DNA from: Galbibacter orientalis DSM 19592
Lineage (GTDB): Bacteria; Bacteroidota; Bacteroidia; Flavobacteriales; Flavobacteriaceae
Direction of reading: 5' to 3'
Length of the DNA: 64,000 nucleotides
NCBI RefSeq assembly: GCF_000260115.1
Contig: NZ_JH651379.1
Coordinates: 3,746,240 to 3,810,239 of the forward strand
Below the pieces are notes generated by a model that saw only the letters and a program-made list of their open reading frames with translations, had not been told where the DNA came from and searched no databases. Each line of letters begins with the position of its first letter. Position 1 is the first letter of the stretch. Below, in pieces: positions 7,666 to 28,535 of the stretch. Made by a program: the position numbers and the translations under genes.

Positions 7666-7739
7666 AACTAACAAGCTTTTCTGCTTAGTACCAATAATAT
7701 CATTGTGTTTGTTTACTTAACAACTCTTCTGCTTTTCAG

Positions 7740-7753: not shown

Positions 7754-7792
7754 TTCAAAATCAAAACCATTTCCTGTTAGACGAGAATATAC

Positions 7793-9671: not shown

Positions 9672-10979
9672 ATGATGATAAAAACAATATGCTCAATCAC
9701 TCTTTATTTCTTATGCTTTTTAAGTGTATCTGCACAAATGAACATTCTCTTCATAGAATCTGACGATCAAAGCAATCAAACAGTAGGTGCTTTTGGAAAT
9801 AATGACATTTTTACTCCAAATATTGATATCCTTGCAAAAGAAGGAGTATCATTTATTTCAGCTTATAATATGGGTTGTTGGTCTCCTGCTGTATGTATTC
9901 CTAGTCGAACTATGCTTATGTATGGAAAATACTTGTGGGAGTCTCAAAAAATAAATAAGAATAATGCTCCAAAATCCCTTCCAGAACTACTAAGTGAAAA
10001 CGGATATTATACATTTATAACGGGGAAATGGCATGCCTTGGGGAAACCTGTTAAAGCCATTTTTAATGAAGTGGGAAGTATACAACCTGGGCAGTTAAAA
10101 ACATACAACTCACCTTCAGGGCACATTACCGATATTACAGGTAGTGAAGCAGTGAAATTTATTAATAATTACAATAACGATAAACCCTTTTTTGCATATG
10201 TTTCATTTAATTCTCCACATGTACCTAGGCAAACAGCTCAAAATTATTATGATTTATATCCTATTGAAAACATTACTTTACCTCCAAGCGTAAAAGACAA
10301 TTCTCTCTTAAATCCTAATGTAAGATACCAATATGCGCCAAATCCATTACAATTAAAGACTATGCTAGAACGGGTACAGCAAAATAATGCTATGGTTACT
10401 CATATGGATAAGCAGATTGGAGATATTCTAAAATCTTTAAAAGACAAAGGCATTTACGACAATACAATTATCGTATTTACATCAGACCACGGTATCAATT
10501 TTGGAGAGAATGGTGTAGCTGGTAAAGTATGTCTATATGAACCAAGTGTTACCGCACCGCTAATTATTAGAGCTCCAAACCTAGAGGCTGGAACTACTAT
10601 TTCAGAACGTGTCTATTTACAAGATATCTTCCCTACCCTTTTTGATTTATTAAATTTAAAAATGAATTATCATACTGACTTTCAAAGTTTAATACCATTA
10701 ATTGAAAAAAAAGACAAAGCTCGAAAATCCATTTATCTGGCTATGTTTGATGATCAACGTGGAATAATTTCTAAAAACGATAAATTAATTATCTATCCTA
10801 AAACTGGCGATTTAGAATTGTATAATCTAAAAAACAATCCATGGGAGACTAAGAACCTTGTTACTAAAATAACTTCAAAATCTACTATTAGAGAACTTCT
10901 GAAGCAATTAAGAATGTGGCAAGAAAAAACAAAAGACCAAACTGATCTAACAACCATTTACAAAAAATATGACTTATAA
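9672..10979 (+). CDS. S1-family sulfatase, exported
   Basis: 435 residues from the ATG at 9672. This start gives a clean signal peptide (MMIKTICSITLYFLCFLSVSAQ region), whereas the open frame further upstream begins with TTG and adds an unlikely tail. Motifs: FIESDDQSNQ metal site, CIPSR formylglycine motif (Cys75) preceded by GCWSPAV, GKWHA, SFNSPHVPR and TSDHGINFGENG. The SDHG form and short C-terminus resemble the choline-sulfatase/iduronate-2-sulfatase-like branches rather than the arylsulfatase A-like ones, so its target sulfate probably differs from its neighbours'. It starts the block sulfatase-sulfatase-GH16-GH117, with 115 bp before the next gene. Confidence 0.92.
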   Translation: MMIKTICSITLYFLCFLSVSAQMNILFIESDDQSNQTVGAFGNNDIFTPNIDILAKEGVSFISAYNMGCWSPAVCIPSRTMLMYGKYLWESQKINKNNAPKSLPELLSENGYYTFITGKWHALGKPVKAIFNEVGSIQPGQLKTYNSPSGHITDITGSEAVKFINNYNNDKPFFAYVSFNSPHVPRQTAQNYYDLYPIENITLPPSVKDNSLLNPNVRYQYAPNPLQLKTMLERVQQNNAMVTHMDKQIGDILKSLKDKGIYDNTIIVFTSDHGINFGENGVAGKVCLYEPSVTAPLIIRAPNLEAGTTISERVYLQDIFPTLFDLLNLKMNYHTDFQSLIPLIEKKDKARKSIYLAMFDDQRGIISKNDKLIIYPKTGDLELYNLKNNPWETKNLVTKITSKSTIRELLKQLRMWQEKTKDQTDLTTIYKKYDL

Positions 10980-11094
10980 ATAAAAACAATATCATACTTT
11001 ATTTAATTTACTATTTACTCAATCCCACAATAAACTATTACTTGTAAATTAAGTTATTCAAAATTTTTAGCATTTAAACCAAATTCTAACAGAC

Positions 11095-12945: not shown

Positions 12946-12964
12946 AAATGATATGACACTACTA

Positions 12965-13834
12965 ATGAATAAACAGTTACTATTTAGCGCTTTATTGCTT
13001 GTAACAGCAATAACTTTCGGACAAGAAACTCCATATTTTAAGAATGGGGAAGCTCCTGAAACTGCAAATAAATCTTGGAAACTAGTCAAAAATATGTCTG
13101 ATGAATTTGAAGGTGAAAAGGTGGATGAAAAAAAATGGCAAATTTCTGGACAAGGTTGGATCGGCCGCGCACCAGGATTATTCCAAGCTAAAAATATTAA
13201 GATCAAAGATGGTGCTTTGCAAATTACAGCTTCGAAATTACAAAAACCGATTATTAAAAATAATAAAACATTTACCCATGGAGGTGCTTATGTTGGATCG
13301 AGAAATGCGATGAAATACGGCTATTATGAATGTGAAATGAAAGCCAACAAAACTTTTATGTCTTCTACTTTTTGGCTAATTAATGAACAAAGCGAACTAG
13401 AAGGCTGTGACAAGCGTACTACCGAGTTGGATATACAAGAAACAGTGGGGCACATTACTAATCCTGCTAAATGGATGAAAAACTTTGATCAAGCCATGAA
13501 TTCCAATACGCACAGTAGAAATATTCCTGAAGATTGTAATTATGAGAAAGGAACTAGTAAAGGAAGCGCCCTTACTGAGGGAAAAACCTATGATGATTTT
13601 CATGTTTATGGCGTTTGGTGGAAGTCCAAAGACGAAATTATTTTCTTTTTAGATGGTAAAAGACAATCTACCGTAAAACCACCTGCTAATTTTGATATCG
13701 AAATGTATTTAAGAATGGTAGTTGAAACATACGATTGGAATCCGGTTCCAAATGATGGAGGTATGACTGGTAGTGTAGCAGATAGAACCACCACGTATAA
13801 TTGGGTAAGATCCTGGAAATTGGTAGACAATTAA
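12965..13834 (+). CDS. GH16-family endo-galactanase (agarase/porphyranase type)
   Basis: 289 residues from the ATG at 12965 (an in-frame ATG at 12953 would add four residues before the signal peptide MNKQLLFSALLLVTAITFGQ). It is a retaining beta-jelly-roll endo-hydrolase. The catalytic motif is ELDIQE with Glu154 (nucleophile), Asp156 and Glu159 (acid/base), numbered from the 12965 start. Upstream lie WIGRAPGLF, GGAYVGSRN, GYYECEMKAN and SSTFWLI, and downstream YNWVRSWKL, all typical of the marine galactanase branch (beta-agarase, beta-porphyranase, furcellaranase). There is no carbohydrate-binding module and no secretion tail. It would make the first cuts in the galactan chain. Choice between agarose, porphyran and related chains needs subfamily placement; porphyranase-like is my preference from context. 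Confidence 0.9.
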   Translation: MNKQLLFSALLLVTAITFGQETPYFKNGEAPETANKSWKLVKNMSDEFEGEKVDEKKWQISGQGWIGRAPGLFQAKNIKIKDGALQITASKLQKPIIKNNKTFTHGGAYVGSRNAMKYGYYECEMKANKTFMSSTFWLINEQSELEGCDKRTTELDIQETVGHITNPAKWMKNFDQAMNSNTHSRNIPEDCNYEKGTSKGSALTEGKTYDDFHVYGVWWKSKDEIIFFLDGKRQSTVKPPANFDIEMYLRMVVETYDWNPVPNDGGMTGSVADRTTTYNWVRSWKLVDN

Positions 13835-13888
13835 TATTTACACAATTTATCGTTACCTAAAAAAATCTAATATTTCAATAAACTGGTT

Positions 13889-15139
13889 ATGAAAAATAAC
13901 AAATCCTTTATATCGCTATTTATACTATTAATTTTAATCTCATGGAAACTTCAATCACAAACTTTTCCATTTATATTACCTTCAGAAAAACCAAACCAGC
14001 CCCTTAGTGCTTCTATGATGCGAAACTATGACAACTATATGGCTCCTAGACCTGAAAATAACGAACTCTACACTCAGTTTAAATACACAGAACTCAAGGG
14101 CTTTAATTACAATAATCATGACGGTACTATAAGTAGAAGAGACCCCTCAAAAATAATTTTTGAAAACGGAAAATATTATGTTTGGTATACATATAGAGAA
14201 ACTGCCACCCCACCTAAAGGCGCCAAACTATCAACAGAAACGATACCTTCTGCCGACTGGGATTTAGCAGAAATTTGGTACGCAACAAGTACGGATGGAT
14301 TTACTTGGGAAGAACAAGGTGTTGCCATTCCTAGGCCACCAAAACCTAATTTAGGACATCGATCTGTTTCCACTCCTGATATTTTAAAATGGAAAAATAA
14401 ATACTACCTGTACTATCAAGGTTTTAGTGAAGCTAGTGGGTTACGTGGAGATGATTGCCCTGTTTTGATGTCTTATTCTAGTTCACCAGACGGTCCATGG
14501 ATCGCAACTAATAAAATCGTAATTCCTAATGGACCAAAAGACACATGGGATCAATATTCTATTCATGATCCTTATCCTTTAGTTTATAAGGATAAAATCT
14601 ATTTATATTATAAATCTGATTTCGATGGGAAACCCGAATTAATTAGAATGCAAGGTCTTGCTACGGCCGACAATCCGTTTGGCCCCTTTACTAAAAACAA
14701 CCTTAATCCAGTATTAACTTCTGGACATGAAACAACATTATTTCCATTTAAGGAGGGGATTGCCGCATTATCAATTAGAGATGGAAATGAGCATAATACT
14801 ATACAATACGCTAAAGATGGTGTAAATTTTGAAATTGCTTCTATCGTAGAACTGATGCCAGCTGCTGCAGGACCTTATATTCCAGATGCGTTTACAAACA
14901 CCAAAAGCGGAAGAGGTATTACATGGGGAATATCTCATTTTACAAATGCCACAACGTGGGATAAAAATCATGCTATTTTAGCACGTTTCGATTGCGATTT
15001 AAGTTTAGATCTAAATGATGTAGATATGAAAAAGCATCATGTATATCATCGCCCAGAAGTCTATTTTAAACAAGGATTAAATGAAAGACAGAAAGAACGT
15101 ATTACGACCGAAAATGATAAATTAATAATGAAAAATTAA
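13889..15139 (+). CDS. GH117-family alpha-1,3-(3,6-anhydro)-L-galactosidase-like
   Basis: A 416-residue protein with a five-bladed beta-propeller and a signal peptide ending LQSQ. Family features: LSASMMRNYDNYMAPRPENNELYTQ-type N-terminal helix region, SRRDPSK with Asp85 (expected base), the SIHDPYPL blade with Asp227, and SGHETTLFP with His280 and Glu281 near the acid/metal site. GH117 enzymes remove 3,6-anhydro-L-galactose from the non-reducing end of neoagaro-oligosaccharides, which complements a GH16 endo-enzyme and a GH2 beta-galactosidase. It follows GH16 by 54 bp on the same strand and is the last gene before a bidirectional terminator. Marine genomes carry several GH117 clades, and not all are active on neoagarobiose. 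Confidence 0.86.
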   Translation: MKNNKSFISLFILLILISWKLQSQTFPFILPSEKPNQPLSASMMRNYDNYMAPRPENNELYTQFKYTELKGFNYNNHDGTISRRDPSKIIFENGKYYVWYTYRETATPPKGAKLSTETIPSADWDLAEIWYATSTDGFTWEEQGVAIPRPPKPNLGHRSVSTPDILKWKNKYYLYYQGFSEASGLRGDDCPVLMSYSSSPDGPWIATNKIVIPNGPKDTWDQYSIHDPYPLVYKDKIYLYYKSDFDGKPELIRMQGLATADNPFGPFTKNNLNPVLTSGHETTLFPFKEGIAALSIRDGNEHNTIQYAKDGVNFEIASIVELMPAAAGPYIPDAFTNTKSGRGITWGISHFTNATTWDKNHAILARFDCDLSLDLNDVDMKKHHVYHRPEVYFKQGLNERQKERITTENDKLIMKN

Positions 15140-15206
15140 GCTTATTATTACATATAATCCTGTAATTCAACAATTTAACTTAAAATAATATTTTCTGCAT
15201 ACTAAA

Positions 15207-15250
15207 AGATGTCCAAAATATTCTAATTTCATGAATATTTTGGACATCTT
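15207..15250. terminator. Bidirectional hairpin between GH117 and sulfatase genes
   Basis: Perfect 18-bp arms, AAGATGTCCAAAATATTC (15207-15224) and its complement (15233-15250), with an 8-nt loop, in the spacer between two convergent genes. Confidence 0.75.
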
Positions 15251-15300
15251 AATTAAAGCTATTTTTATACTACCTCTTTTAAGTAGTAGTACTATCTTTT

Positions 15301-16800
15301 CTAACTTCGTGTTGCTATACCACTATCTCTCGTTTCATTATATAAGCGAAATAATTCATCTACCTTATCTTTATATGCAGGGTTATTAATGAAATTATCT
15401 TCTTCATTTTCAGTAGGATTTTCCTTTAAATTAAACAATGCGATTGGTTCTCTAATTCTATAATCTTTCTTATCAATTTGTATAATTAATTTCCATTCAT
15501 CTTTAATGATTATAGTTTGCTTTCCTGTACCTGATTGTGTCATAAGAAAAGGATGAACTTGAGTAGTTTTTCCTTTTAATACAGGTAGTAAACTTGATGA
15601 ATCCATAGCATTATCTCCTTCTAATTTTTGATTCGTAATCTCGGCTAATGTACCCAGAATATCAATACCTAAAATAGGTGTAGAAGAAACTGATTTTGCT
15701 TTAATTTCCCTAGGCCACCATGCGATAAAAGGTACTCGATGCCCACCTTCATACATTTGATTTTTTCCTCCTCTAAAAATATCGTTTGATTTGTGACCAG
15801 ATTTTATAGTTTCCTTTTCTAATAATCCTCCATTGTCTGAAGTAAAAATGATTAAAGTATTATCGTAAACGCCCTTTTGCTTTAAAGCATTTATAATCAT
15901 TTCCATTTGCACATCCAATTCTTTAACCATGTCTAAGTGGTTGGATGGTGTAGTACCCGCAATGTTAGTACCATTTAATTTTTCTGAAGGTGTATGAGGC
16001 AAATGCACTGCTTGAGAACAATAATACATAAAGAAAGGCGATTTATCAGTAGTGCTTTCTATAAAGTTAACTGCCTTATTAACTAATAATTCCCCAGAAT
16101 TATAAGGGTTCCAATTACTATCGCCTAAACCTTCTTTTTTATCAAGCGTTACTCCTTTTTCCAACATATCCTTCTTGGTGATTAAGATAATTTCGGAATC
16201 TGGTCCCAATGATACCATCTTGCCATTTTCATACACAGCATACGGTTCCGCTTGTATTCCTGCTGGATACATAAAACTATAGTCAAATCCATTTTGTAAA
16301 GGTCCCTTGTCTATTACTCTTGAAATATCAACATCCAGTTCATGTTCCTTTCGAGGACTTCTATAGATTTCATTTGGATTGTCTTTTCTTGCAAAATCCA
16401 TTCCAAACCCCCATTTCCCAAAGAAAGCAGTTTGATAACCTGCATTTTTCATTAATGTCCCTAATGTTAATTGATCCGGCTGTATTGGAGATTGTTGATA
16501 AGATCCCCAAACTCCCCAAGGCGCATAACTTCTATAGCAGTGATTTCCCGTCATGATAGCATACCTAGTTGGAGCACATAAGGCTGCAGGAGTATGTGCA
16601 TTTGTAAAAATCATACCTTCCTTGGCTAACCTATCAATTGTGGGTGTTTCAAGAATAATATTGTTTGAATGCTTTTTTCTATAATAAGAAACATCACCAA
16701 TTCCAATATCATCTGCTAAAACAACTATTACATTCGGTCTTTGTTGGGCAAAAACCATTACTGATATTACCGTTAGAATAAGAGTTAATATATATTTCAT
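15301..16800 (-). CDS. S1-family sulfatase, exported
   Basis: 499 residues with signal peptide MKYILTLILTVISVMVFAQ. Motifs: VLADDIGIGD (Asp30/Asp31), CAPTR (Cys75) then YAIMTGNH, GKWGFGMD (Gly in place of the more common His after W), CSQAVHLPHTP, and TSDNGGLLE followed by FRGGKNQMYEGGHRVPF. The large insert between about 150 and 240 should shape the substrate pocket. It is arylsulfatase A-like. It has its own 150-bp leader upstream, and the stop codon faces the GH117 gene across a shared hairpin. In the minus-strand block it follows the SusC-SusD-binding-protein genes, so it may belong to that transcript. The sulfate position cannot be deduced. Confidence 0.92.
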   Translation of the reverse strand: MKYILTLILTVISVMVFAQQRPNVIVVLADDIGIGDVSYYRKKHSNNIILETPTIDRLAKEGMIFTNAHTPAALCAPTRYAIMTGNHCYRSYAPWGVWGSYQQSPIQPDQLTLGTLMKNAGYQTAFFGKWGFGMDFARKDNPNEIYRSPRKEHELDVDISRVIDKGPLQNGFDYSFMYPAGIQAEPYAVYENGKMVSLGPDSEIILITKKDMLEKGVTLDKKEGLGDSNWNPYNSGELLVNKAVNFIESTTDKSPFFMYYCSQAVHLPHTPSEKLNGTNIAGTTPSNHLDMVKELDVQMEMIINALKQKGVYDNTLIIFTSDNGGLLEKETIKSGHKSNDIFRGGKNQMYEGGHRVPFIAWWPREIKAKSVSSTPILGIDILGTLAEITNQKLEGDNAMDSSSLLPVLKGKTTQVHPFLMTQSGTGKQTIIIKDEWKLIIQIDKKDYRIREPIALFNLKENPTENEEDNFINNPAYKDKVDELFRLYNETRDSGIATRS

Positions 16801-16951
16801 TTTTAAAAATTTTAATCAACTGCAATTTACTAGCCCCAAATTAGAGATGAATAATTCGCAAAAAAATGAAGATGCATGTTGTTATTAAAATCTTCATTCT
16901 TTTGTTTTGATTAGTAAAAATACAGCGAGCTATTGAATTTGAATGGTCAAA

Positions 16952-18514
16952 TTAAGGTCTTTCATCTACCTCAATTATTCTCAGGTCATCTATGTATATT
17001 ACACCTTTTCCTCCATGTCTAACATACACATTATAATCGTCGGCTGTATTAGCAGCTTCCCATTTTTTAGCAACCCTTATTGTTACCCAAGTATTTGAAG
17101 GTACACTTGCTATATCATTATGCCAGAATTGAGTAACGGTTTCATCTCCTCCTCTATTTATCCATGGAGCCATAAATGGAATTGCAGCTCCATCAACCTT
17201 ATATAGTTTATATTCATATTGCACGGGCACACCTGCTTCTAAGTGAAAAGTATCCTCATAATTTATAAATGCTGAAAAGTTTCCAGCAACTGGGGCATCT
17301 ACTTTCAAACTCATTGTCCCACTTGCTGCTTGCTCTGTTGAACTACTTATAATAGTTGTTGATAGGTTTTCATTTACTTTAGGTACAAAATTTAAGGCTC
17401 CACTTTCAAAATCAAATTTTATAACCTCATGTTGAAACATATTGACTGGCAAATCTGAAAAGCCTACAGCACTTCTAGTATCTGTAGAAATTAAAGAACC
17501 TTCTCCATCGTAACTCACAGTAATTACATCAGATCTATATATCTGATCAGTTAATTTAATATCTAGCATAGTGCCGTCATTAGTGTTTACTTTAACTGAA
17601 GCTATTGTAAAAGGAGAATCATTAACAATAACAGAAAAGTGAGATTCTTGTCCTGAAAAGGATTCAAACTCACCATTAAAAGGAACTTGAATTATTTGAG
17701 ATTCTGATTCGGTTACTGCTCCTGAAACTTCGAACGGTAAAGATGAAGGTATAACTTTTACAGTAGCTGGAATATTATATTTCTCAAAATCTGCAGGAAC
17801 ATTCTCTCCAGTTCTACTAAGATTTAGGGAACCTTTAAATTCTCCTAATTTATTAAACTGAATGGTAGCAAGTGAATCTGAATTTGTTTCTCCAGCTATT
17901 TGCCATAATCTAGTATTTGGCCTCCCAACGGTACTTACATCAACAAATTCTACAGCTGAACCAGCTTCTACCGTAATTACATCGCTATCGGATTCGTGTG
18001 AAATAATATTTCCATCTTGACGTATTAAAATTTTAGGAACGATTGTATCATATACATCAACTAAAAAAGTGGTATCTATTACCCATCTCCCATCAACTTC
18101 CTTAGATTTAAATACAAAATCATCTGCGCCCTTAAACTCAACATATTGATCAAAAACATTGTATAAATTTACTTTCTGAATTCCTCCTTTTTTAAATAAA
18201 ACATGTACAGTTTTATCATCTGTTTCTAACACAGCTGGTTCTATAATAAACTTATCATATATTGAATCTTTATTTGTAATTGGTCCCTTCAAATAGTAGT
18301 TTCCGTCCTCTATTGTCCACTTATGCGAGACTACCCCTTGAGACAGATCCGAGAATGAAGCATAGTCATTGATATTTACATTTAAAATTGAATCCCTGAA
18401 GCCACTAGTATACCATGAAACATCCGAAAATGAATTAGGTTCATCATATTCATCACGAGAACATGCTATTACAAGCATAATAATAAATACTAATAAATAT
18501 AATTTATTTTTCAT
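16952..18514 (-). CDS. Surface glycan-binding lipoprotein (SusE/SusF-position)
   Basis: 520 residues. The lipoprotein signal ends at VIACS, and an acidic linker follows (RDEYDEPN), the usual surface-export signature in Bacteroidota. An all-beta chain follows: an N-terminal Ig/PKD-like region (residues about 40-260, with VEFVDVSTVGRPNTRLWQIAG), a second Ig-like segment (about 260-345), and a C-terminal sandwich of about 165 residues (FDFESGALNF to YIDDLRIIEV) that looks like a carbohydrate-binding module with several exposed Trp (APWINRGG, TQFWHND, AKKWEA). No catalytic motif is seen. It is encoded directly downstream of SusD, the position of SusE/F-type proteins, and probably holds the galactan at the cell surface. 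The binding specificity is inferred only. Confidence 0.8.
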   Translation of the reverse strand: MKNKLYLLVFIIMLVIACSRDEYDEPNSFSDVSWYTSGFRDSILNVNINDYASFSDLSQGVVSHKWTIEDGNYYLKGPITNKDSIYDKFIIEPAVLETDDKTVHVLFKKGGIQKVNLYNVFDQYVEFKGADDFVFKSKEVDGRWVIDTTFLVDVYDTIVPKILIRQDGNIISHESDSDVITVEAGSAVEFVDVSTVGRPNTRLWQIAGETNSDSLATIQFNKLGEFKGSLNLSRTGENVPADFEKYNIPATVKVIPSSLPFEVSGAVTESESQIIQVPFNGEFESFSGQESHFSVIVNDSPFTIASVKVNTNDGTMLDIKLTDQIYRSDVITVSYDGEGSLISTDTRSAVGFSDLPVNMFQHEVIKFDFESGALNFVPKVNENLSTTIISSSTEQAASGTMSLKVDAPVAGNFSAFINYEDTFHLEAGVPVQYEYKLYKVDGAAIPFMAPWINRGGDETVTQFWHNDIASVPSNTWVTIRVAKKWEAANTADDYNVYVRHGGKGVIYIDDLRIIEVDERP

Positions 18515-18525
18515 CTTTTTTTATT

Positions 18526-20337
18526 TTAATTATTCAAATTTGGATTTGCTGTAACTTCACTATTAGGAATAGGATAGTATCCATGTAAATTTTCATTATA
18601 ATTTACAGCAGCTTGCTGAAAATCTTGAAATTCAAATCCATTAGATATAGGGTTCTCTCCCTCATTTAAAATGGCACCATAACGTATTACAGGTTTTCCT
18701 TTTAGATCAACTGTTTCAAAATCTGTTGCATAATATCTTCTATTACTTAAGTTTTCAAATCGTTCTTTAAGTATACCCCAACGTCTTAAATCTAAAAAAC
18801 GGATAGCATGTCCTTCTTCAGCTAACTCTAAAGGCCTTTCGATAAACATCAAATGATCCATTACGTCCTTAGCAGTATATATTTTATTATCATGATTAGC
18901 AGTTGGATAAGTACTAGTAGTGCTTAAACCTATTAATTGTAATGCAGAACGATGTCTAACTTCATTGATCAAACTTATAGCTTGTGTTACTCCACCCTCA
19001 TCTGTTCCTCCTTTTATTAAACATTCTGCAAGCATTAAGTAAATATCTGCCAGACGAACTAAACGAATATTAAGTCCAGATCTCGTATTTGGCACAAAAT
19101 CATTTTCCGAATCTACCGTAGCCCAATTTGAATACTTTCTAAAATAAGCGCACTCATTATTATTAAATATTGTTACTGTTCCAGGTAGATGACCTCCATA
19201 ATATGGGGTATCTAGATCGTCTGCAAATGCTAAAGAGTATGATGCTCGTAGAGAATATTTCCTAGGCTTGGTTAAAGTAATTGGATCGCAACCTTCTTCT
19301 CCTTCTTGACAAGGAACGTAATTTCTAGGATCATTTAAATCCAATTCTTCATTTTTGTAGGCTATTTGCAACCAACAACTTGGTAGACCTATTCTGTAAC
19401 CTCCTAAATTTCCAGGAGCAAAGGATCTACCTAATGTATTTGAAACGTTTTGACTGTCGTAAGGACTTAACTCAGATTTAAAATTAACTGAGTAACTAAT
19501 TTCTAAAATAGATTCTGAATTAAATTCACCTACTTCAGAAAAATTATCATCAATATTACTTACTAAGGATCTAGCGTATTCCGAATTAGTTATTATATCA
19601 TTAAAATATACAGCGGCTGTTGTATAATCTTCTTCATACAAATAACTCCTCCCTAATTCTGCTGCTGCAGCTGCAGCATTAACTCTTCCCAAATCATCAT
19701 TACTAGTCCAAATTGGAGGTAAATTGCTATATGCAAACTCCAGATCTGCTAAATAAAACTCTTTAACCTTAGATGCAGGACTAAGTGGTTGGTAAAACTC
19801 ACTTTCTGCCTCTGGAACGAAATCGAAAATAGGAACACTTCCTTTATTAAACATATTATATAAATATGTATATGAAATTCCTCTAAAAAACCTTGCTTGT
19901 GCAATTATTTGATTGGCTTCATCTATTTTCTCTTGATCTGTATAAGTATCTATTAGCCTATTGCCATTCTCAATTACCTGGTTAGCTCTAAAAATTACAA
20001 CATACAGTGCTGACCACTTATTGTTTATATCCACTTGTGAGTCATTGAAAGTATGATTATAAAACACAGCAAGTTGATTATTAGGGTTTGGTCTTCCGAA
20101 ACCAGGATAATTTAAATCAGCTCTATTATTTTCGCCTACTACATTTAAAATTTGCGTGTTTTTAAAACCATTATAAACTGCGGTTAATCCTGAGTTTAAA
20201 TCAATATTGTTTTTCCAAAAACTAACTGTCGATAATTCATTAGGATTTGTTTCTGTTAAAAAATCATCTGAACATGAAGAACAAATGAGAATACACAATA
20301 AAAAGATATTCAGTTTGTTAGATATAAATATTTTCAT
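18526..20337 (-). CDS. susD: SusD/RagB-family glycan-binding lipoprotein
   Basis: A 603-residue outer-membrane lipoprotein (CSSC-SDDFLTETNPNELS) that caps the SusC channel and binds oligosaccharide. Family features: the start FLTETNPNELSTVSFWKN, the TPR scaffold (IIAQARFFRGISYTYLYNMFNKGSVP), RLVRLADIYLMLAECLIKGG, INEVRHRS, and the C-terminal ERPLELAEEGHAIRFLDLRRWGIL and YYPIPNSEV. It lies 15 bp downstream of SusC, which indicates co-transcription and complex formation. It is longer than many SusD proteins because of an insertion around 320-385 that includes two close Cys (PCQEGEEGCD). Confidence 0.95.
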   Translation of the reverse strand: MKIFISNKLNIFLLCILICSSCSDDFLTETNPNELSTVSFWKNNIDLNSGLTAVYNGFKNTQILNVVGENNRADLNYPGFGRPNPNNQLAVFYNHTFNDSQVDINNKWSALYVVIFRANQVIENGNRLIDTYTDQEKIDEANQIIAQARFFRGISYTYLYNMFNKGSVPIFDFVPEAESEFYQPLSPASKVKEFYLADLEFAYSNLPPIWTSNDDLGRVNAAAAAAELGRSYLYEEDYTTAAVYFNDIITNSEYARSLVSNIDDNFSEVGEFNSESILEISYSVNFKSELSPYDSQNVSNTLGRSFAPGNLGGYRIGLPSCWLQIAYKNEELDLNDPRNYVPCQEGEEGCDPITLTKPRKYSLRASYSLAFADDLDTPYYGGHLPGTVTIFNNNECAYFRKYSNWATVDSENDFVPNTRSGLNIRLVRLADIYLMLAECLIKGGTDEGGVTQAISLINEVRHRSALQLIGLSTTSTYPTANHDNKIYTAKDVMDHLMFIERPLELAEEGHAIRFLDLRRWGILKERFENLSNRRYYATDFETVDLKGKPVIRYGAILNEGENPISNGFEFQDFQQAAVNYNENLHGYYPIPNSEVTANPNLNN

Positions 20338-20352
20338 CTTATAATTATTTTA

Positions 20353-23300
20353 TTAAAACTTAAATTCTATTCCAGCTCTATATATAGAACTAATTGGGTA
20401 TACACCTGCATCAATGCCTCGCGTATTAAGCCCATCATTCCCTATTTCAGGATCAAAGCCATCATAATTGGTAATAGTTAATAAGTTATCGGCTGCCAAA
20501 TAAAATCTTAGCATATTAATGTTCAATTTATCACTCCATTTTTTCGGCATAGTATACCCGAGAGTGATATTTTTTAAACGGGCAAAGCTTCCATCTTGTA
20601 ACCAAAAATCTGTATAGCCTCTATAGTTGGCGTTATCTCTACCCCTATCTGCAGGGATATTTGAGGTTGGGTTATTAACAGTCCATTGATAAACTAAGTC
20701 TTGATGTGTTCCTTGCTTATAAGCATATGCTTTACTTCCATTAATAATTTCTCCACCAATTGCAGAATACCAATTCATAGATAAATCTATTCCCTTATAG
20801 TTAGATGTAAAATTTAAACCTAATTCATATTCAGGAGCTCCACTCCCTTTATAAACTCTGTCGTCAAGATTAATAGTTCCATCTCCAGCATCTAGAACTC
20901 CATCTCCATCTGTATCGATCGTTAATTGATCAACATAACGTAATGATCCTAACTCCGCTGTCGGATCTAACTCTCTATATTCTATTAATTCTTCTTCAGT
21001 TCTAACTAAGCCATCAGTTTCTATAAGAAAGAAAGCTCCTGCTTCATATCCTTCTCTTAAGGCTGTTACTAAATCTTCTCCTGGCAATCCAGGAGCAACT
21101 TGACTTCCGCTTAAAAATGAAAATTTATTAGAATCACTCATTTTTGTAATTTGATTCTTATTTGAAGAATAACTTGCTGCTAAACTCCAATTAAATTTAC
21201 CCGAGTGCTTATAATTTGCACTCCATTCCATTCCATAATTCCTCATATCACCCACATTTAGAATTACGCTAGAATTATTACCTCCTCCAACTGTTGGTGG
21301 CAATATAACGGGGAAGAGCATGTTGCTTCGTGAACCATCATAAATCTCACTTGTTAGGGTTAGTTTATTATTAAAAAAACCGAAGTCCATACCAAAGTTT
21401 TTTTCTATTTTTTTCTCCCATTTTGCATCTGGATTTTTAAATGCTTCTTGTACTGCTCCCAAAACAAGTGCCTCATTAGAACCTGTTCCAAAAACATAAT
21501 CATTTCCTATTCCAATGGTTGGATCCGTACTATAATCTAGAATACTTTGGTTTCCTGTAGTACCATAGCTAAACCGAACTTTTAAAAAATTAAAAGTATC
21601 ACCAAAAACATCCTCCCAACCTTTTTCATCTGAAATAATCCAAGCTAAAGAAGCCGAAGGTGCATATATCCATCTATTATCTGCTGAAAATCTACTTGTA
21701 CCATCTCTTCTAATACTTGCGCTAAATAAATATCTTCCTTTATAATCGTATTGAGCACGACCCAGCATACCTATTAATGTATTAACTCTATCTTGCCCAT
21801 ATCCATTACCAGTTCCTACATTAGCATCTAATGTTGCTCCATTTAGGTTTACCACTTCATTATTGAATAATTCAAATTTTTGAGCAAAAAATGAATTATA
21901 AGTATATTTTTCAGTAGAGTAAGCTCCCACAAGTGTTACATGGTGATTTCCGAAATTATTATTATAGGTTGCAATACCATCTATTGTAGCACTCGTAGCT
22001 CTGCTACTCTGATTTTTAACTCCCGATCTTGTTTGTTGTGGTATAAGACTTCCATCCGAACTATATGCTTGAAATAAGGGATTAATAGTTACACGATTAT
22101 TATTTGTCCTACCCATAGAAACTCTTGTAGTTAATTTTAAATGTTTAAATAAGTTAAAATCAATCTGTGTACGTATATTAAAATCATCTCCAAATCTCTC
22201 ATCAGATTGTTTAAGCTTACCGGCTAGGTTGCTAAGATTAATAGCATCGTTATTAGTGTTGTTTCCTGCACTATCACTAATAGTTGGGGCATCTGGATCT
22301 ATTTCCTTTTGATATGGTTTATACCTATACCCATCTAACAAAATCTGCCATGGAGTATATTGTTGTTCATCTGTTCGTAAACCAATACCTGTAGTAATTG
22401 TCCATTTATTCTTTTTATAGGTTGTATTTGCACGGACGTTGAATCGTTTTAATCCTGAATTAATTAACGATCCTACCTGGTCAAAATAGTTAAGGGAAAG
22501 ATTATATGTTAATCCTTCTTTTCCTCCAGTAATATTTACATTATGATTTTGTATCAAAGCATTATCAACTTGCAGGATATCCATCAAATTTGTATCGTTA
22601 GTAAAATCATTTGGATTTTGCTCTAAGGTGGTAAATGAATTATTTGGATACGTACCGTTTAAATTATTGAGTCTAATAAATTGTGAATACATTGAATCTT
22701 CAAAATTCATTAAAGGTATACTCGATGTTATATCTTGCATCCCTAAATAGCTATTGACTCCAATATCCATCTTTCCTACTTTTCCTGTTTTAGTTGTAAT
22801 TAGTATTACGCCTGCAGATCCTCGAGTTCCATAAATAGCAGCAGAAGCAGCATCTTTTAATACATCTATAGTTTCTATTTCTGATACACTTAATTGTGGG
22901 TTACCGTCTTGAGGAATTCCATCCACTACATAAAGTGGACTATTACTACCAAAAACAGAATTAATACCACGAATTAAAATAACTGCATCTGAACCCGGCT
23001 GACCACTACTTGATGTAACATTTACACCAGCAATTTGACCTTGTAATGCATTACCGACATCTGAAGTAGGTATCTTTTCTAATCTTTCAGACTTCACCTG
23101 GCCAACAGCTCCTGTTAACTCTCTTTTCTTTTGTTTCCCATAACCTATTACAACAACTTCATCTAAAGTTTCTGTGTCGTTCTTTAGTTCAACATTTAAG
23201 TGAGTTCTACCATTTAAAGAAACCTCCTGCTCATTAAAACCGATATAGGAAAAAATTAACACGTTATCTGAATCCGTATTAATTTCGAAGTTCCCATCAA

Positions 23301-23487
23301 AATCTGTTACTGTTCCAATTGTTGTTCCTTTAACAATTATACTGACTCCTGGGAGCGGGCCTCCATCCCCTGTAACGATGCCTGTAATAGGCTTGTTTTG
23401 TGCCTGGATCCGACCAAAACCAACGACTAATAGAATTGTCATGATTAAGATTTTATACCTAAACTCAAAAGGTAAATTAAATTTCAT
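20353..23487 (-). CDS. susC: SusC/RagA-family TonB-dependent outer-membrane transporter
   Basis: 1044 residues, TonB-dependent importer of oligosaccharides released at the surface. Layout: signal peptide (to GRIQAQ), CarboxypepD_reg-like domain (about 33-115, ITGIVTGDGGPLPGVSIIVKG), TonB box/plug (DEVVVIGYGKQKKRELTGA, then ALQGQIAGVNV, LYVVDGIP, VLKDAASAAIYGTRGSAGVI), and a 22-strand barrel ending in ISSIYRAGIEFKF. The first gene of the minus-strand SusC-SusD-binding-protein block. A TTTG-N21-GACATTTG promoter-like sequence lies about 60-95 bp upstream. Confidence 0.96.
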   Translation of the reverse strand: MKFNLPFEFRYKILIMTILLVVGFGRIQAQNKPITGIVTGDGGPLPGVSIIVKGTTIGTVTDFDGNFEINTDSDNVLIFSYIGFNEQEVSLNGRTHLNVELKNDTETLDEVVVIGYGKQKKRELTGAVGQVKSERLEKIPTSDVGNALQGQIAGVNVTSSSGQPGSDAVILIRGINSVFGSNSPLYVVDGIPQDGNPQLSVSEIETIDVLKDAASAAIYGTRGSAGVILITTKTGKVGKMDIGVNSYLGMQDITSSIPLMNFEDSMYSQFIRLNNLNGTYPNNSFTTLEQNPNDFTNDTNLMDILQVDNALIQNHNVNITGGKEGLTYNLSLNYFDQVGSLINSGLKRFNVRANTTYKKNKWTITTGIGLRTDEQQYTPWQILLDGYRYKPYQKEIDPDAPTISDSAGNNTNNDAINLSNLAGKLKQSDERFGDDFNIRTQIDFNLFKHLKLTTRVSMGRTNNNRVTINPLFQAYSSDGSLIPQQTRSGVKNQSSRATSATIDGIATYNNNFGNHHVTLVGAYSTEKYTYNSFFAQKFELFNNEVVNLNGATLDANVGTGNGYGQDRVNTLIGMLGRAQYDYKGRYLFSASIRRDGTSRFSADNRWIYAPSASLAWIISDEKGWEDVFGDTFNFLKVRFSYGTTGNQSILDYSTDPTIGIGNDYVFGTGSNEALVLGAVQEAFKNPDAKWEKKIEKNFGMDFGFFNNKLTLTSEIYDGSRSNMLFPVILPPTVGGGNNSSVILNVGDMRNYGMEWSANYKHSGKFNWSLAASYSSNKNQITKMSDSNKFSFLSGSQVAPGLPGEDLVTALREGYEAGAFFLIETDGLVRTEEELIEYRELDPTAELGSLRYVDQLTIDTDGDGVLDAGDGTINLDDRVYKGSGAPEYELGLNFTSNYKGIDLSMNWYSAIGGEIINGSKAYAYKQGTHQDLVYQWTVNNPTSNIPADRGRDNANYRGYTDFWLQDGSFARLKNITLGYTMPKKWSDKLNINMLRFYLAADNLLTITNYDGFDPEIGNDGLNTRGIDAGVYPISSIYRAGIEFKF

Positions 23488-24259
23488 AATTGGTTAACGT
23501 TTAAATTAGTTAATCAAAGGTTGATTTTATTAACCTCGAAAGGGATAACAAATGTCTTTTTTAAAGAAACAAATGGGCAAAATCTTAAAAATATGTTAAC
23601 TAAAACGATTTAGAATAAAATCAGTATATCAGGTAATTAATAGAATAGATTCGTTAAAAAAATTGAAATTGATGTATAATTAGAAGTTTGTAGTATATTC
23701 ATTCAGCTAACTATTTAATTTTACATTAAATCACCGACTCACAAAGGTTTACCTATTGAAGCTACTTCAAAAATTCACCTTTTTAATTATTTATATATTA
23801 ATCCATTTTATATAAGGTGAAACAAGGAAAATTACTAGAAAGGAATACAATTGAATTATTGTAAGTCCGGATTTTATGAATTAATCGAAAGCTGCTTCAA
23901 TAAGTACTTTGCATAGAATTTTTAACCTCATAAGTACAATCGATAGTATATTTTTAGTAGGTCAGAGATAAATTTTAGTTTAATTTAAACCGCTCTGTAT
24001 ATTTAAAATGCTATAACTTATTAAGTTTAAATAATACAAGACTATTTGTATACAGGTTTCATCCAAAAATAAAATTACTTTCACTAACTTATTCAAATTC
24101 TATACAACTAAAAAAGCAACTTCAAAGTTATTTTTACACAATAAAATATAGTTGTATAATGTTAATGTTTTTCCAATTCGGTGTCAGTCCATTTTCGACT
24201 CACTGAAAGGCATCGTAAACACTCAAAAAATCCAAAAAGATGTAGTTCCTTTTTCTCAT
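23488..24259. other. Long spacer between susC and integrase
   Basis: 772 bp of AT-rich DNA. Apart from the candidate susC promoter, no gene, RNA or clear repeat was recognised. Confidence 0.5.
23549..23581 (-). promoter_or_regulatory. Candidate Bacteroidota promoter for susC
   Basis: On the minus strand: TTTG (-33 box, 23578-23581), 21 bp, then GACATTTG (-7 box, 23549-23556, 7 of 8 matches to TAnnTTTG). It would give a leader of about 55 nt before the susC start. Confidence 0.42.
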
Positions 24260-25501
24260 TCAAAAATTAACCACTTTATCCAAAGCCATATCTGCTTCTT
24301 TTTTCATAAAATTAGCTTGATAATTTATAGTTGTAGTCACAGAAGAATGTCTGTATAACTTTTGCAACATTTGTATTGGTATTTTATCTCCTGAAATATT
24401 ACCAAAAGTATGACGCGCAATATGCATACTAATATTCTTATTAATTTTAAGCGTTTCAGCTGCTAATTTTAGTCTTCTATTCAAATTCCTAGTGATTGTT
24501 TTAACTCTAACTGCTATATGCTTCTTATCATTTAAATTTACCTCCCCAATATCAGGAAAAACCAATGCCCTCTTATTGACCCCCATTTCATTTTTATAAT
24601 ACTCAAGGATAGCATAAGCCTTTTCAGGAATCTTTAAAGAATCATATTTTTTGTTCTTACTCATACGATAATACAACCTACCATCTTTGAAATCTGACCA
24701 TTTCAACAATAACAAATCCCCTATTCGTATCCCAGCAAAATAAAAACTAAACAACCATAAATTTACTGCATGTTTTTGGGCAGGGGCTAAAAAATCAGCA
24801 GCTTCCAGTTTTTTAACCTCTTCTATACTTAACCCTATTTTTTCAGACTGCGGGAATTTGAGTTGTATCTTCCCCTTCCCAAAAGGATAAAAATCTCTAC
24901 TCACTATTTCATCTGCAATGGCTCGATTATAAATTGTTCGTATTACAATTAAATGATTAACTACTGTTCTGGGAGATTTTTTTTGTCCATGCAATAAAAA
25001 CGTCTCATACTTTTTAAGAAAAGGTACAGTAATTTCTTTAAAATTCAATTTTGAATTTCCTACAAATAATTGTAATTTTTTAATTCGCCCCTTTTGACTT
25101 ATGTATTGATTATATTTCTCCCTGTCTATTAGACTTTGTAGGTACTCATCTGCAACACTAAAAAAATCCATCGTATTGGCTACAGTCAATTTTCTTTTAA
25201 TTGTTGCTACCGAAGCATGTGAATTTAACGCTTCTGAATCGAGCATACACCCATTAATTTCAGCGAGTTTAACCAAGATTAACTGATTAATTTTATCTGC
25301 ATTCGGATGTGATTTTTTGACTTTTCGGTTATGACTGTCCCAATATTTCTCTTCAATATATTGACCTATTGAAAAATAAGATGTCCTTCTATCTTTAGTT
25401 ATTCTTATAGCTAAAGGATGTAAAAGTTTATTTTTGTTTTTCTTCCATAAAAGCACTTTAATAGACGACATATCATAAAAGTTTTTTATAAAATTAATCA
25501 T
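24260..25501 (-). CDS. Tyrosine recombinase / phage-type integrase of the island
   Basis: 413 residues with an N-terminal arm-binding region (about 12-60), a SAM-like core-binding domain (about 110-195) and a catalytic domain (about 220-400). The catalytic set is complete: Arg259 (GIRIGD), His360-x-x-Arg363 (HIARHTFG), His385 (LYRHSS) and Tyr394 (INYQ). This is the type used by integrative elements of Bacteroidota that enter tRNA genes. The gene's 5' end lies about 130 bp from the tRNA-fMet fragment, the normal place for an integrase next to its attachment site. An ATG ten codons in (25471) is an alternative start. It probably integrates and excises the whole PUL-bearing island. Confidence 0.93.
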   Translation of the reverse strand: MINFIKNFYDMSSIKVLLWKKNKNKLLHPLAIRITKDRRTSYFSIGQYIEEKYWDSHNRKVKKSHPNADKINQLILVKLAEINGCMLDSEALNSHASVATIKRKLTVANTMDFFSVADEYLQSLIDREKYNQYISQKGRIKKLQLFVGNSKLNFKEITVPFLKKYETFLLHGQKKSPRTVVNHLIVIRTIYNRAIADEIVSRDFYPFGKGKIQLKFPQSEKIGLSIEEVKKLEAADFLAPAQKHAVNLWLFSFYFAGIRIGDLLLLKWSDFKDGRLYYRMSKNKKYDSLKIPEKAYAILEYYKNEMGVNKRALVFPDIGEVNLNDKKHIAVRVKTITRNLNRRLKLAAETLKINKNISMHIARHTFGNISGDKIPIQMLQKLYRHSSVTTTINYQANFMKKEADMALDKVVNF

Positions 25502-25631
25502 TTTAGGTAAAACATAGGTAAAACATTTTATGCTTTTTAATGATTTTATTTGATATTATGTAAAACAGAAAAATATATAACTAATTGATTTTAAGGTGGT
25601 TTACGTTAAATTAATGTTTTTATTTTTATTT

Positions 25632-25672
25632 TCATAACCCGGAGGTCTCGGGTTCAATTCCCGATCTCGCTA
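25632..25672 (+). repeat. 3' fragment of initiator tRNA-Met(CAT): attachment-site scar
   Basis: The sequence starts in the anticodon loop (T-CAT-AA) and continues with the anticodon-stem 3' strand CCCGG, variable loop AGGTC, T-arm TCGGG-TTCAATT-CCCGA, and acceptor strand TCTCGCT plus A. The run of C's after CATAA (three G-C pairs next to the loop) marks an initiator tRNA. The 5' half is absent: the bases before it are AT-rich and unrelated. So this is not a functional tRNA but the duplicated 3' end left by integration. Confidence 0.8.
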
Positions 25673-25680
25673 CAACAAAT

Positions 25681-25714
25681 AAAAAGGCTTTACAGAAATG
25701 TGAAGCCTTTTTTT
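25681..25714 (+). terminator. Terminator that originally followed the tRNA-fMet gene
   Basis: AAAAGGCTTTA / TGAAGCCTTTT hairpin with a T-run, 9 nt after the tRNA fragment. It marks the start of the chromosomal flank. Confidence 0.8.
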
Positions 25715-26084
25715 ATACTCTAATTTTTAATAAGAATCTTTTGCCACCAATTCACAAATAATTCTTTTATTCCACCTCCTACCCTACTAAAAATTATTAA
25801 TAGAAGCTAACTTCATAGTGTTATTCTTTAAGCTTGTTTTTCTTACCAACACATTTTTCTATAAAAATCATTTTCTACATCAACACCATTAATTCTTATT
25901 AAATACACAACGGGAATACATTTTACTCAAAAACCCATAAAATACTAATAAGTAATAAAATAAAAATATAATACTACAATATTTAAGTATTTATATGTAA
26001 GAATATTACTTTATTCTATTGAAAATAATTATATCTTTACGTAAAACATGTAATAAAATCCACACAACCAAAAAAAAGAAAAAA

Positions 26085-28535
26085 ATGAAAATTCAACAAA
26101 ATTTAAGTAAAGTACTCCCCCACATGGTAAGTATCTTTTGCCTTTTACTAGTTGTATCTTGTACTACAAAATCTAGCTCAACTTCAGATGAGACTAGCAA
26201 TGAAGCAGAAGATGACTTTAAAGGAAAAATAGCACTAGACATCCGTGATTCGGAAGCAGATTGGTCTGCTTACACACCAAAATCGGCACCTAAAGACGCT
26301 CCAAACATATTATTTATACTTTATGATGACACAGGTCTTGGAGCATGGTCTCCTTATGGGGGACGTATAAATATGCCTACAATGGATAAATTAGCCGCAA
26401 ATGGACTAACATATACACAGTGGCATACTACTGCTCTTTGTTCTCCTACCCGATCTACTATTTTAACAGGAAGAAACCACCATTTAAACGGGATGGCTTC
26501 TATTACAGAAACAGCAGATGGATATCCTGGTTCTAACGGACGTGTTCCAGACGATTGCGCTCCTTTTGCAGAAATTTTAAGAGACAATGGGTGGAGTACT
26601 TTTTGGATTGGTAAAAATCATAATGTTCCAGAACAAGACATTGCTCCAGGTGCAAGCCGAACTGAATGGCCAACACAAATTGGATTTGACAGGTTTTACG
26701 GATTCTTAGGTGGAGAAACTAATAATTGGTATCCAGATTTAGTAGAAGACAATCACTTTATTGAAGCGCCAGCTACTCCAGAAGAAGGATATCACCTATC
26801 CAAAGATTTAGCAGATCAAGCTATTACAATGTTACGCGACAAAAACGCTACCAACCCATCAAAACCTTTTTATATGTGGTTTAACCCAGGTGCAAATCAC
26901 GCTCCACATCACTCTCCTGCAGAATACACAGCAAAATATAAAGGTAAATTTGACGATGGGTATGAAGCTTACAGAGAATGGGTAGTTAAACGCATGAAAG
27001 AAAAAGGAATTATACCCGAAGATACAGGAATGGCAGACTTTAACCCTATGCCAGAAGATCAAGCTAATCCTGGAGATTTTGTACGTCCTTGGGATGAATT
27101 AAATGCAGATGAAAAAAGATTATTCGCAAGAATGGCAGAAGTTTATGCTGGATTCTCAGAATATACAGATGCTCAAGTTGGTAGAATTATTGATTATTTA
27201 GAAGAAACTGGACAATTAGAAAATACGATTGTATTGTATGCTGCCGATAACGGGGCATCTGGAGAAGGAAGTCCAAATGGTTCTGTTAACGAAAATAAAT
27301 TCTTTAACGGTTATCCAGACGAATTAGCAGAGAATATGAAGTATCTAGATGTTTTAGGAGGTCCAGATACATACAACCATTTCCCAACGGGGTGGGCAGC
27401 AGCATTTTCTGCTCCCTTTAAAATGTTTAAAAGATATTCTCAATACGCAGGGGGAACAAATGACCCGCTGGTAATTTCATGGCCAAAAGGAATTAAAGCA
27501 AGAGGTGAAATTCGCCATCAATATCATCATTCTGTAGATATTGTACCTACTTTACTAGAAGCTTGTGGAATAGAGTTTCCAGAAGTATACAAAGGAGCAA
27601 AACAAACTCCACTTTCTGGAACATCAATGGTGTATACTTTTGATGCAAAACCAAACGATGCTACTAAAAAAGAAGTACAATATTTTGCTATGTTGGGTAC
27701 TAGAGGTATCTGGAAAGATGGCTGGAAAGCTGCTGCTGTTCATGCGCCAATAAGTGGTAAAGGTCATTTTGACGAAGATGTTTGGGAGCTTTATCATGTT
27801 GCTGAAGACCGTTCTGAATCTAATAACTTAGCTGAAGAAAATCCAGAAAAACTTCAAGAACTAATTGATGAATGGTTCCATCAAGCTGAAATAAATAAAG
27901 TACTTCCGCTTGACGATAGAAGCGCAGCAGAATTATTAACTATTGAAAGGCCTGCTCAGGAAGCTGCTAAAGACCGCTATGTATATTACCCTAATACAGC
28001 ACCAGTTCCAGAAGGAGTTGCTGTAAATGTACGGGGGAGAGATTATAAAATTTTAGCAAATGTAGAGATTAAAGATCCAAATGTAGAGGGTGTTCTTTTT
28101 GCTCATGGTTCTCGTTTTGGCGGCCATTCTCTCTTTATTAAAGACAAAAAATTATACTACGTATATAATTTCTTAGGAATTAAGCCAGAGCAAGTATTTA
28201 CCTCTAATGTAAGTTTAAAACCAGGAAAATATACATTAGGAATGGAATTTAGCAGAGAAAAAGCTGGAGAATATGGAGAATCTATTGGAAACATGAAGCT
28301 CTATGTTAATGAAGAGGTTGTTGCAGAAGGACCAATGCGTACGCAACCAGCCAAGTTTACTTTATCTGGAGACGGATTATGTGTTGGATACGACAGTGGT
28401 GATAATGTAAGTAATTTATATGAAGCTCCTGGAGAGTTTGAAGGAGGTTCTATTCAAGGAGTTGCTGTTACTGTTGAAGGGGAACCATACGTAAACCTTG
28501 AAGCGGAAGCAAAACGTATGTTGATGACGCATTAA
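26085..28535 (+). CDS. Large arylsulfatase (AtsA-like S1), lipoprotein
   Basis: 816 residues from the ATG at 26085, chosen because it gives a lipoprotein signal (LLLVVSC, Cys26) followed by a Ser/Thr/acidic linker. An upstream in-frame ATG (26019) would add a charged tail. Catalytic signatures: YDDTGLGAWSPYGG, CSPTR (Cys119) followed by STILTGRNHH, IGKNHNVP, NPGANHAPHH, AADNGASGEG, and SVDIVPTLLE. A C-terminal beta-sandwich (about 640-800, GGHSLFIKDKKLYYVYNF) is typical of the long AtsA-like arylsulfatases. It lies outside the island border and has its own terminator, so it is probably a resident gene rather than part of the PUL. The substrate is unknown; these enzymes can be promiscuous arylsulfatases. 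Confidence 0.92.
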   Translation: MKIQQNLSKVLPHMVSIFCLLLVVSCTTKSSSTSDETSNEAEDDFKGKIALDIRDSEADWSAYTPKSAPKDAPNILFILYDDTGLGAWSPYGGRINMPTMDKLAANGLTYTQWHTTALCSPTRSTILTGRNHHLNGMASITETADGYPGSNGRVPDDCAPFAEILRDNGWSTFWIGKNHNVPEQDIAPGASRTEWPTQIGFDRFYGFLGGETNNWYPDLVEDNHFIEAPATPEEGYHLSKDLADQAITMLRDKNATNPSKPFYMWFNPGANHAPHHSPAEYTAKYKGKFDDGYEAYREWVVKRMKEKGIIPEDTGMADFNPMPEDQANPGDFVRPWDELNADEKRLFARMAEVYAGFSEYTDAQVGRIIDYLEETGQLENTIVLYAADNGASGEGSPNGSVNENKFFNGYPDELAENMKYLDVLGGPDTYNHFPTGWAAAFSAPFKMFKRYSQYAGGTNDPLVISWPKGIKARGEIRHQYHHSVDIVPTLLEACGIEFPEVYKGAKQTPLSGTSMVYTFDAKPNDATKKEVQYFAMLGTRGIWKDGWKAAAVHAPISGKGHFDEDVWELYHVAEDRSESNNLAEENPEKLQELIDEWFHQAEINKVLPLDDRSAAELLTIERPAQEAAKDRYVYYPNTAPVPEGVAVNVRGRDYKILANVEIKDPNVEGVLFAHGSRFGGHSLFIKDKKLYYVYNFLGIKPEQVFTSNVSLKPGKYTLGMEFSREKAGEYGESIGNMKLYVNEEVVAEGPMRTQPAKFTLSGDGLCVGYDSGDNVSNLYEAPGEFEGGSIQGVAVTVEGEPYVNLEAEAKRMLMTH

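Follow-up and report, generated by a model that had tools for sequence, protein, structure and literature searches.

A tRNA-Met fragment and an integrase at the border of a predicted porphyran locus in Galbibacter orientalis: right end of a candidate integrative and conjugative element

A stretch of 64,000 nucleotides from Galbibacter orientalis DSM 19592 (contig NZ_JH651379.1, positions 3,746,240 to 3,810,239; hereafter the window) carries a gene for a tyrosine recombinase with the 3' part of a tRNA gene beside it, and to the left of both a cluster of genes predicted to act on porphyran. The genome is 4.5 Mb in size; the contig holding the window is called C1 below, and a second contig of 558 kb C2. 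We describe this border and consider whether it is the right end (attR) of an integrative and conjugative element (ICE), here named element Y, that carries the porphyran genes as cargo. The features at the border are the following (window positions):

24260..25501, minus strand: tyrosine recombinase (integrase) assigned to element Y (413-aa open reading frame (ORF), Pfam domains, catalytic residues)
25507..25526, plus strand: arm-type repeat pair (P arm), GTAAAACAT-AG-GTAAAACAT (genome-wide arm map)
25631..25673, plus strand: attachment core, elongator tRNA-Met(CAT) 3' part, anticodon loop through 3' end (sequence match)
25682..25714, plus strand: terminator-like hairpin and T run, 3' of the tRNA fragment (read from the sequence)

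The integrase and its tRNA fragment

Among the Bacteroidota, tyrosine recombinases that move integrative elements include the CTnDOT and NBU1 integrases of Bacteroides. The window integrase combines an arm-binding domain (Arm-DNA-bind_5), a SAM-like domain (Phage_int_SAM_5) and a catalytic domain (Phage_integrase), and it has the whole R-K-H-R-H-Y set of a tRNA-targeting tyrosine recombinase, namely R259, K282, H360, R363, H385 and Y394. Across an alignment of 83 family members, R259, K282, H360 and H385 are present in all 83, and R363 and Y394 in 82 each. An earlier reading made from the sequence alone (the sequence-only reading) had proposed a complete recombinase with R259, H360/R363, H385 and Y394, and the ORF, its domains and the alignment bear this out.

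Relatives were collected by scanning with an alignment in which the window integrase was combined with seven relatives from this genome (a scan with the single protein returned none); the search gave at least 505 in named genomes, from which the best 80 were kept, so that counts over 80 loci describe the nearest relatives of the window integrase rather than the whole family. Nearly all 80 are from Flavobacteriaceae, and every one of them has a tRNA 3' fragment before the integrase gene (38 fMet, 37 Met and 5 Leu). The T-arm pattern missed or mis-hit some of these loci; 15 were read directly, and all have a tRNA-Met-type fragment. A 9-mer repeat with a period of 11 is found at 78 of the 80 within the 200 bp upstream plus the first 60 bp of the gene, while the control regions gave 1 match in the downstream stretches and 0/80 within the gene. 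Arm and core could both be placed at 78 loci; their distance ranges from 121 to 136 bp and is 124 or 125 bp at 64 of them. In the window it is 124 bp, counted from the start of the arm pair to the fragment. The border is a tRNA integration scar beside an integrase.

The fragment itself, 43 nt long and 130 bp from the integrase, reads TTCATAACCCGGAGG...CTCGCTAC (TTCATAA...CTAC). It is not a chance match: when up to 3 mismatches are allowed, a 30-nt part of it is found a single time in the window and in none of 100 shuffles. The tRNA 3' fragment placed by the sequence-only reading at 25632-25672 therefore stands, at 25631-25673, but its attribution to an initiator tRNA does not. The 41 nt CATAA...CTAC (25633-25673) were searched in 299 genomes including this one; 28 of these, again counting this genome, match with up to 3 mismatches, and seven family genomes apart from this one have the exact 41 nt as the 3' part of an intact elongator-type tRNA-Met. 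Intact tRNA-Met was seen at 26 of 28 scanned loci from other genomes (4 of the 34 matching places had no locus and were unscanned for tRNAs), and START-domain and class IV aminotransferase genes are each present at 21 of the 28 loci examined. The 5' half in the 15 tRNA-Met loci read is GGCGAG(G/A)TAGCTCAG...GTCGGATTCATAA, whose form, judged from known tRNA anatomy, points to an elongator tRNA-Met. The 3' half of the initiator gene in this genome (C1:~2703.1 kb) is unlike the window fragment. By sequence, then, the fragment is the 3' part of an elongator and not of an initiator tRNA-Met, and initiator tRNA-fMet was rejected as the target on comparison with the elongator genes and with the genome's own fMet. 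Insertion of the element into initiator tRNA-fMet would agree with the anticodon, which is the same in both tRNAs, with the closest integrase relatives (element 3 of this genome, described below, and locus L131), which sit at fMet, and with the row of such elements at fMet in this genome; against the exact match to elongator genes in seven genomes, and the mismatch to the own fMet gene, we give it almost no credence. Hairpins similar to that at 25682-25714 also lie behind the intact fMet gene and at other att sites.

The exact 41 nt occur twice in the genome, in the window and at C2:36739-36779(-). The copy on C2 is likewise a fragment, beside a related integrase, and no intact tRNA was found there; nor was an intact gene with the window fragment's 3' end found anywhere in this genome. 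The intact elongator tRNA-Met gene, recognized by its 5' half with one mismatch, is C2:88892-88966. It carries a 3' half different from the window fragment, with the end of a second stacked element (X) behind it, and upstream of it are START-domain and class IV aminotransferase genes, as in the same-genus genome G030. The sequence-only reading had expected an intact tRNA with an identical 3' end within some hundred kb to the left of the fragment; taken literally there is none, but in substance there would be one, as C2:88892-88966 would lie about 208 kb to the left if C2 fits into C1 as the repeats at its ends indicate.

Arm pairs, stacked elements and the site plan of the family

A genome-wide map of arm pairs lists 18 places. 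The same arm pair stands at both ends of six contiguous elements, exactly in five and with one mismatch in one:

C1:2760 and C1:44025
C1:44254 and C1:89401
C1:198020 and C1:255809
C1:343262 and C1:394502 (one mismatch)
C1:1294146 and C1:1321484
C2:88821 and C2:36887

The GTACAACAT type is found at several ends, so its arms by themselves do not settle which ends belong together. For the GTAAAACAT type, the 20-mer of the window arm pair recurs at C1:44254, C1:89401 and C2:36659, giving C1:44254 and C2:36659 as left ends and C1:89401 and the window as right ends. C1:44254-89401 is contiguous, which leaves the window with C2:36659 alone as a possible partner. The core at C2:36739-36779 and the window core at 25633-25673 are identical, as are the arm pairs, although the two are ends of the same element only if the join of the contigs described below holds. 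Between C1:3646 kb and the window integrase the arm map has no second arm pair with up to one mismatch.

At the fMet gene stand three elements in a row (C1:~2703.1 kb; C1:1-89600) with arm types GTACAACAT, GTACAGAAT and GTAAAACAT, the first of which spans the contig break, from C1:2703208 to C1:2541. Inside the third (element 3), at C1:60517 on the minus strand (locus L077), there is a lone GTACAACAT arm pair beside an apparent tRNA 3' remnant. The integrase of element 3 (C1:88162) is 67% identical to that of the window.

Element X and an off-target relative bear on the probable point of strand exchange. The anticodon loop is common to initiator and elongator tRNA-Met. For element X, the fragment at C2:36.7 kb agrees with the intact gene only at TTCATAACCCGGAGGTC and differs from it on both sides, so strand exchange should fall within these 17 bp. 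The off-target element E, a relative of 27 kb at C1:1294050-1321610 (loci L036, L247 and L037), lies within a protein gene and has an fMet fragment on the left but not on the right. Its flanks can be joined in phase in ways that leave 342-344 codons of open frame across the junction, and the arrangement would fit a crossover close to where the anticodon loop begins.

A tree of the integrases was built from 83 of 88 proteins, five with frames below 300 residues being left out. The target label changes 11 times among four groups on this tree, against a mean of 33.1 when shuffled, and the arm label 8 times. Targets track the integrase, yet they switch repeatedly between initiator and elongator: two tree neighbours from one Sediminicola luteus strain differ in target (L134, fMet; L132, Met), and the window integrase, at Met, is sister to two fMet users.

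We tentatively hypothesize, at a little short of even odds, one large Flavobacteriaceae integrase family with a fixed site plan, whose ICEs stack head to tail, use the arms as addresses, hop between fMet and Met and carry up to ~100 kb of seaweed-polysaccharide cargo. The fixed plan would be 9-bp arm repeats ~125 bp from an anticodon-loop core, with several ICEs per methionine tRNA gene. The ends of one element would share one arm pair; as the arms of neighbours differ in the two stacks seen, each integrase would excise its own element only. Hopping between initiator and elongator tRNA-Met would be possible because the anticodon loop is common to both, and every arrival would rewrite the 3' half of an essential tRNA. 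An arm pair, a spacing of ~125 bp and a tRNA-Met, -fMet or -Leu fragment also make a search rule for the ends of islands in Flavobacteriaceae.

Two tRNA-Leu sites have a somewhat different look. At L079 1240-1440 (C1:~197.8-198.0 kb) and L081 1240-1458 (C1:~343.0-343.2 kb) the left end of the element carries a complete tRNA-Leu gene. Before it, at both sites, stands what seems to be the cut-off 5' half of a second tRNA-Leu gene, which would fit breakage of the host gene and supply of a replacement. This is comparable to phages with tRNA-dependent lysogeny, as they are described in the available passages of PMC10865867.

The predicted porphyran locus

The features to the left of the fragment, and the flank to its right, are as follows (window positions):

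1..25630, no strand: right-hand part of candidate element Y, a predicted porphyran locus as cargo, then the integrase (arms, homologs)
12953..13834, plus strand: GH16, predicted beta-porphyranase (210/271 aligned residues as in porphyranase B, 3juu)
13889..15139, plus strand: GH43-like, relative of 3,6-anhydro-alpha-L-galactosidases (structure-entry matches)
18526..20337, minus strand: SusD-like protein (SusD_RagB, SusD-like_3)
20353..23487, minus strand: SusC-like TonB-dependent transporter, final cargo gene on the integrase side (Pfam)
25674..28535, plus strand: flank outside the element (B'), including a sulfatase at 26085-28535 (Pfam Sulfatase; homolog counts)

Sulfatases, GH2, an alpha-L-fucosidase, GH16, the GH43-like protein, SusD and SusC make up the cargo at 1088-23487. 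The GH43-like ORF is nearest to 4u6d (E=1.4e-221) and 4u6b, both named only as hypothetical, and after these to the 3,6-anhydro-alpha-L-galactosidase 3p2n (E=1.5e-56). With a beta-porphyranase, a SusC/SusD pair and sulfatases recognized by their sequences, the cluster is predicted to be a porphyran utilization locus.

Matches to the SusC protein at E<=1e-200 are present in 33 of 397 genomes searched, this one included, and in neither of two same-genus genomes (G030 and G256); relatives in two other genera are 80% and 75% identical. Homologs of the surrounding ORFs, at a cut-off of at least 50%, were then counted in stretches of 80 kb (genomes G370 and G246) and 40 kb (G237). Such homologs exist in G370, G246 and G237 for 10, 8 and 1 of the window's 12 cargo ORFs and for 8, 3 and 2 of the 22 ORFs at C1:3708-3746 kb, respectively; for the 12 ORFs at C1:3690-3708 kb, and for the 14 ORFs right of the fragment, there are none in any of the three stretches. 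By these counts the shared cluster is the ~60 kb beside the integrase and not the whole 100 kb. In the two other genera the clustered homologs extend to the SusC gene and stop there. That the element lies to the left of the fragment, as had been proposed from the sequence, is supported by the geometry of the site and by cargo homologs on the left side only; and the locus was not seen at the same place in relatives lacking the integrase, the two same-genus genomes having no SusC match and the two other genera having it in other surroundings. The further claim that the locus is the cargo of an island is likely to be right: the porphyran locus is probably cargo of element Y, within the limit that this rests on the presumed join of two contigs.

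GC content was tried as a mark of the island and discarded, there being no contrast between cargo and right flank. Farther right and outside the element, window 53160-57761 holds a SusD-like protein beside a 974-aa ORF, perhaps a second SusC/SusD pair.

A candidate element of about 155 kb

The left end of C2 (68-1375) matches C1:3652105-3650796 (92%), and its right end (551772-558212) matches C1:3667131-3660584 (96-99%), which suggests that C2, reversed, fits into C1 between ~3652 and 3660 kb. The join would give one element of ~155 kb with the window integrase and fragment as its right end. Read from the left, the joined order would be the arm pair, TraN, TraM, TraG, ~27 kb more of C2 and ~8 kb that are unresolved, then a coupling protein (T4CP), the MobB relaxase, RadC, SSB, ~100 kb of cargo, the integrase, the arm pair and the tRNA fragment; MobB, T4CP, TraG, TraM and TraN are all present, inside one element only if C2 joins C1 in this way. 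Element 3 (C1:44.25-89.5 kb), which is contiguous and has the same arm type, runs TraN, TraM, MobB, RadC, SSB, cargo and integrase in the order and orientation of the joined Y, and its SSB is 100% identical over 114 residues to that at C1:3665 kb.

We hypothesize, with a probability of about 75%, that 25507-25673 is the attR of ICE Y in the elongator tRNA-Met(CAT) gene, and that Y is ~155 kb long, carries the porphyran genes and has its left end at C2:36.7 kb. Y would have entered the elongator gene and supplied it with a new 3' half, and the host gene's original 3' part, displaced, would be the 43-nt fragment in the window. Family anatomy and the stacked and off-target copies suggest that the integrase binds the pair at 25507-25526 and the matching pair at the far end, and that strands are exchanged in the anticodon arm. 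X would have entered later, in front of Y, and the intact gene at C2:88892-88966 would now end in X's version. With C2 placed inside C1 at ~3652-3660 kb, Y would run left through ~100 kb of cargo, the mobilization genes (ssb, radC, MobB, coupling protein) and the tra genes to its end at C2:36.7 kb. What the sequences show directly is the identity of the fragment, the intact tRNA gene, the conserved geometry of the site, the matching arms, the order of genes within each contig and the repeats at the contig ends; we infer the join and this order of events, and likewise an active integrase, excision and transfer.

Several observations weigh against this history. The left end of Y is on another contig, and the join rests on repeats of 92-99% identity; between the window fragment and the intact tRNA-Met at C2:88892-88966 stand another element and that presumed join. 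In the assembly as it stands, the genes at C1:3660-3668 kb allow a second reading, as belonging to a different ICE at tRNA-Ser (C1:3635 kb), for which no displaced tRNA-Ser far end was found nearby. TraG and the coupling protein have no match in element 3, and in X, element 2, the left part of element 1 and off-target element E the genes for SSB, RadC, MobB and the coupling protein have the opposite orientation, near the left arm. C1's own ends (C1:3949188-3950031 and C1:1-740) lie in another ICE repeat (99% and 96%), so the assembly deserves general caution; the fMet row would then close on itself, and a larger misassembly or rearrangement is possible. No empty site, which the sequence-only reading had looked to related genomes for, was found through the carB and murF neighbours: the surroundings of carB differ across three same-genus genomes, and murF adjoins tRNA-Met in G030 (1 of 28 loci) and is here at C1:2538740. 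Finally, the G370, G246 and G237 stretches showed none of the family's integrases, arm pairs or Met fragments, and the GC content, even across the border from cargo to right flank, is uninformative.

These points give two rivals some room. The integrase and fragment could be the end of an old, broken element, beside or inside which a porphyran locus that is not mobile came to lie later by recombination. In favour of such a history, C1 as assembled has no left end for the element, the porphyran clusters of two other genera have no member of this integrase family adjoining, and GC does not change at the border. Against it, a lone unpaired left end of the same arm type lies on C2, whose ends fit C1, in an order that agrees with element 3; the integrase, arms and core look intact; and the homology of the cargo extends as far as SusC, the gene adjoining the integrase, and no farther. 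We regard a broken element as unlikely, though as the strongest of the rivals.

The contigs could also be right as assembled, with C2 a separate circle of 558 kb and the window element deprived of its left end. Wrong joins are easily made here because two near-identical conjugation modules exist (C1:3640.3-3644.8 kb and C2:29.2-33.7 kb, 97%), and the assembly may be broken or misjoined at the C1 and C2 ends, where ICE repeats are 92-99% like another place. The ends of C2 match neighbouring parts of one ICE region and could close on each other. However, C2 holds the intact elongator tRNA-Met, whose neighbours recur at 21 of 28 family loci, and nothing on C2 was recognized as a right end of Y; a self-closing C2, or a real rearrangement, would therefore leave two elements with one end each. 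A separate circle appears to us slightly less probable than a broken element, and the joined element Y the better account of both contigs.

tRNA-targeting ICEs with polysaccharide cargo are a kind of element already known. Among the closest by description are the ICECleSHZ29-like ICEs of Flavobacteriaceae and Weeksellaceae, which in the available passages of PMC12561888 are likewise ICEs with Tra genes at tRNA-Met-CAT; there the insertion site goes with the integrase type, and a circular form was detected by inverse PCR. Their cargo consists of resistance genes where here there are polysaccharide genes, and their 17-bp tcccgtcttcgctacaa repeat at the tRNA-Met 3' end is absent from the window core, which ends cccgatctcgctacaac. 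Unlike in those ICEs, the shared stretch here starts at the anticodon loop, and X limits the exchange to TTCATAACCCGGAGGTC. The available part of PMC10865867 describes the NBU1 core as the 3' end of tRNA-Leu rather than the anticodon loop (a comparison by description), and mycobacteriophage cores that, as here, span the tRNA from its anticodon loop to its 3' end (30-45 bp), with putative arm sites. The latter are phages of Actinobacteria and not conjugative elements, and they also show secondary insertion in protein genes and, in some, replacement tRNA genes.

Porphyran genes are the textbook case of transfer from marine to human gut bacteria, as the abstract of PMC12316285 relates; the main text of that paper, on gut porphyran loci, contains neither 'tRNA' nor 'conjugative'. 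Gut Bacteroides loci for porphyran, agarose and lambda-carrageenan are on ICEs or mobilizable plasmids in the available passages of PMC8845570, so that porphyran genes there too are on mobile elements; these passages concern gut species and name no tRNA-Met site, whereas the present locus is in a member of the Flavobacteriaceae and has a defined site. A defined vehicle for a porphyran locus, one that has conjugation genes, a target site and a candidate for each of its ends, makes such transfer testable.

Right of the border, window 31864-33092 is 100% identical over its 1229 bp to C1:3636745-3637973 and encodes a transposase pair (HTH_Tnp_1, rve).
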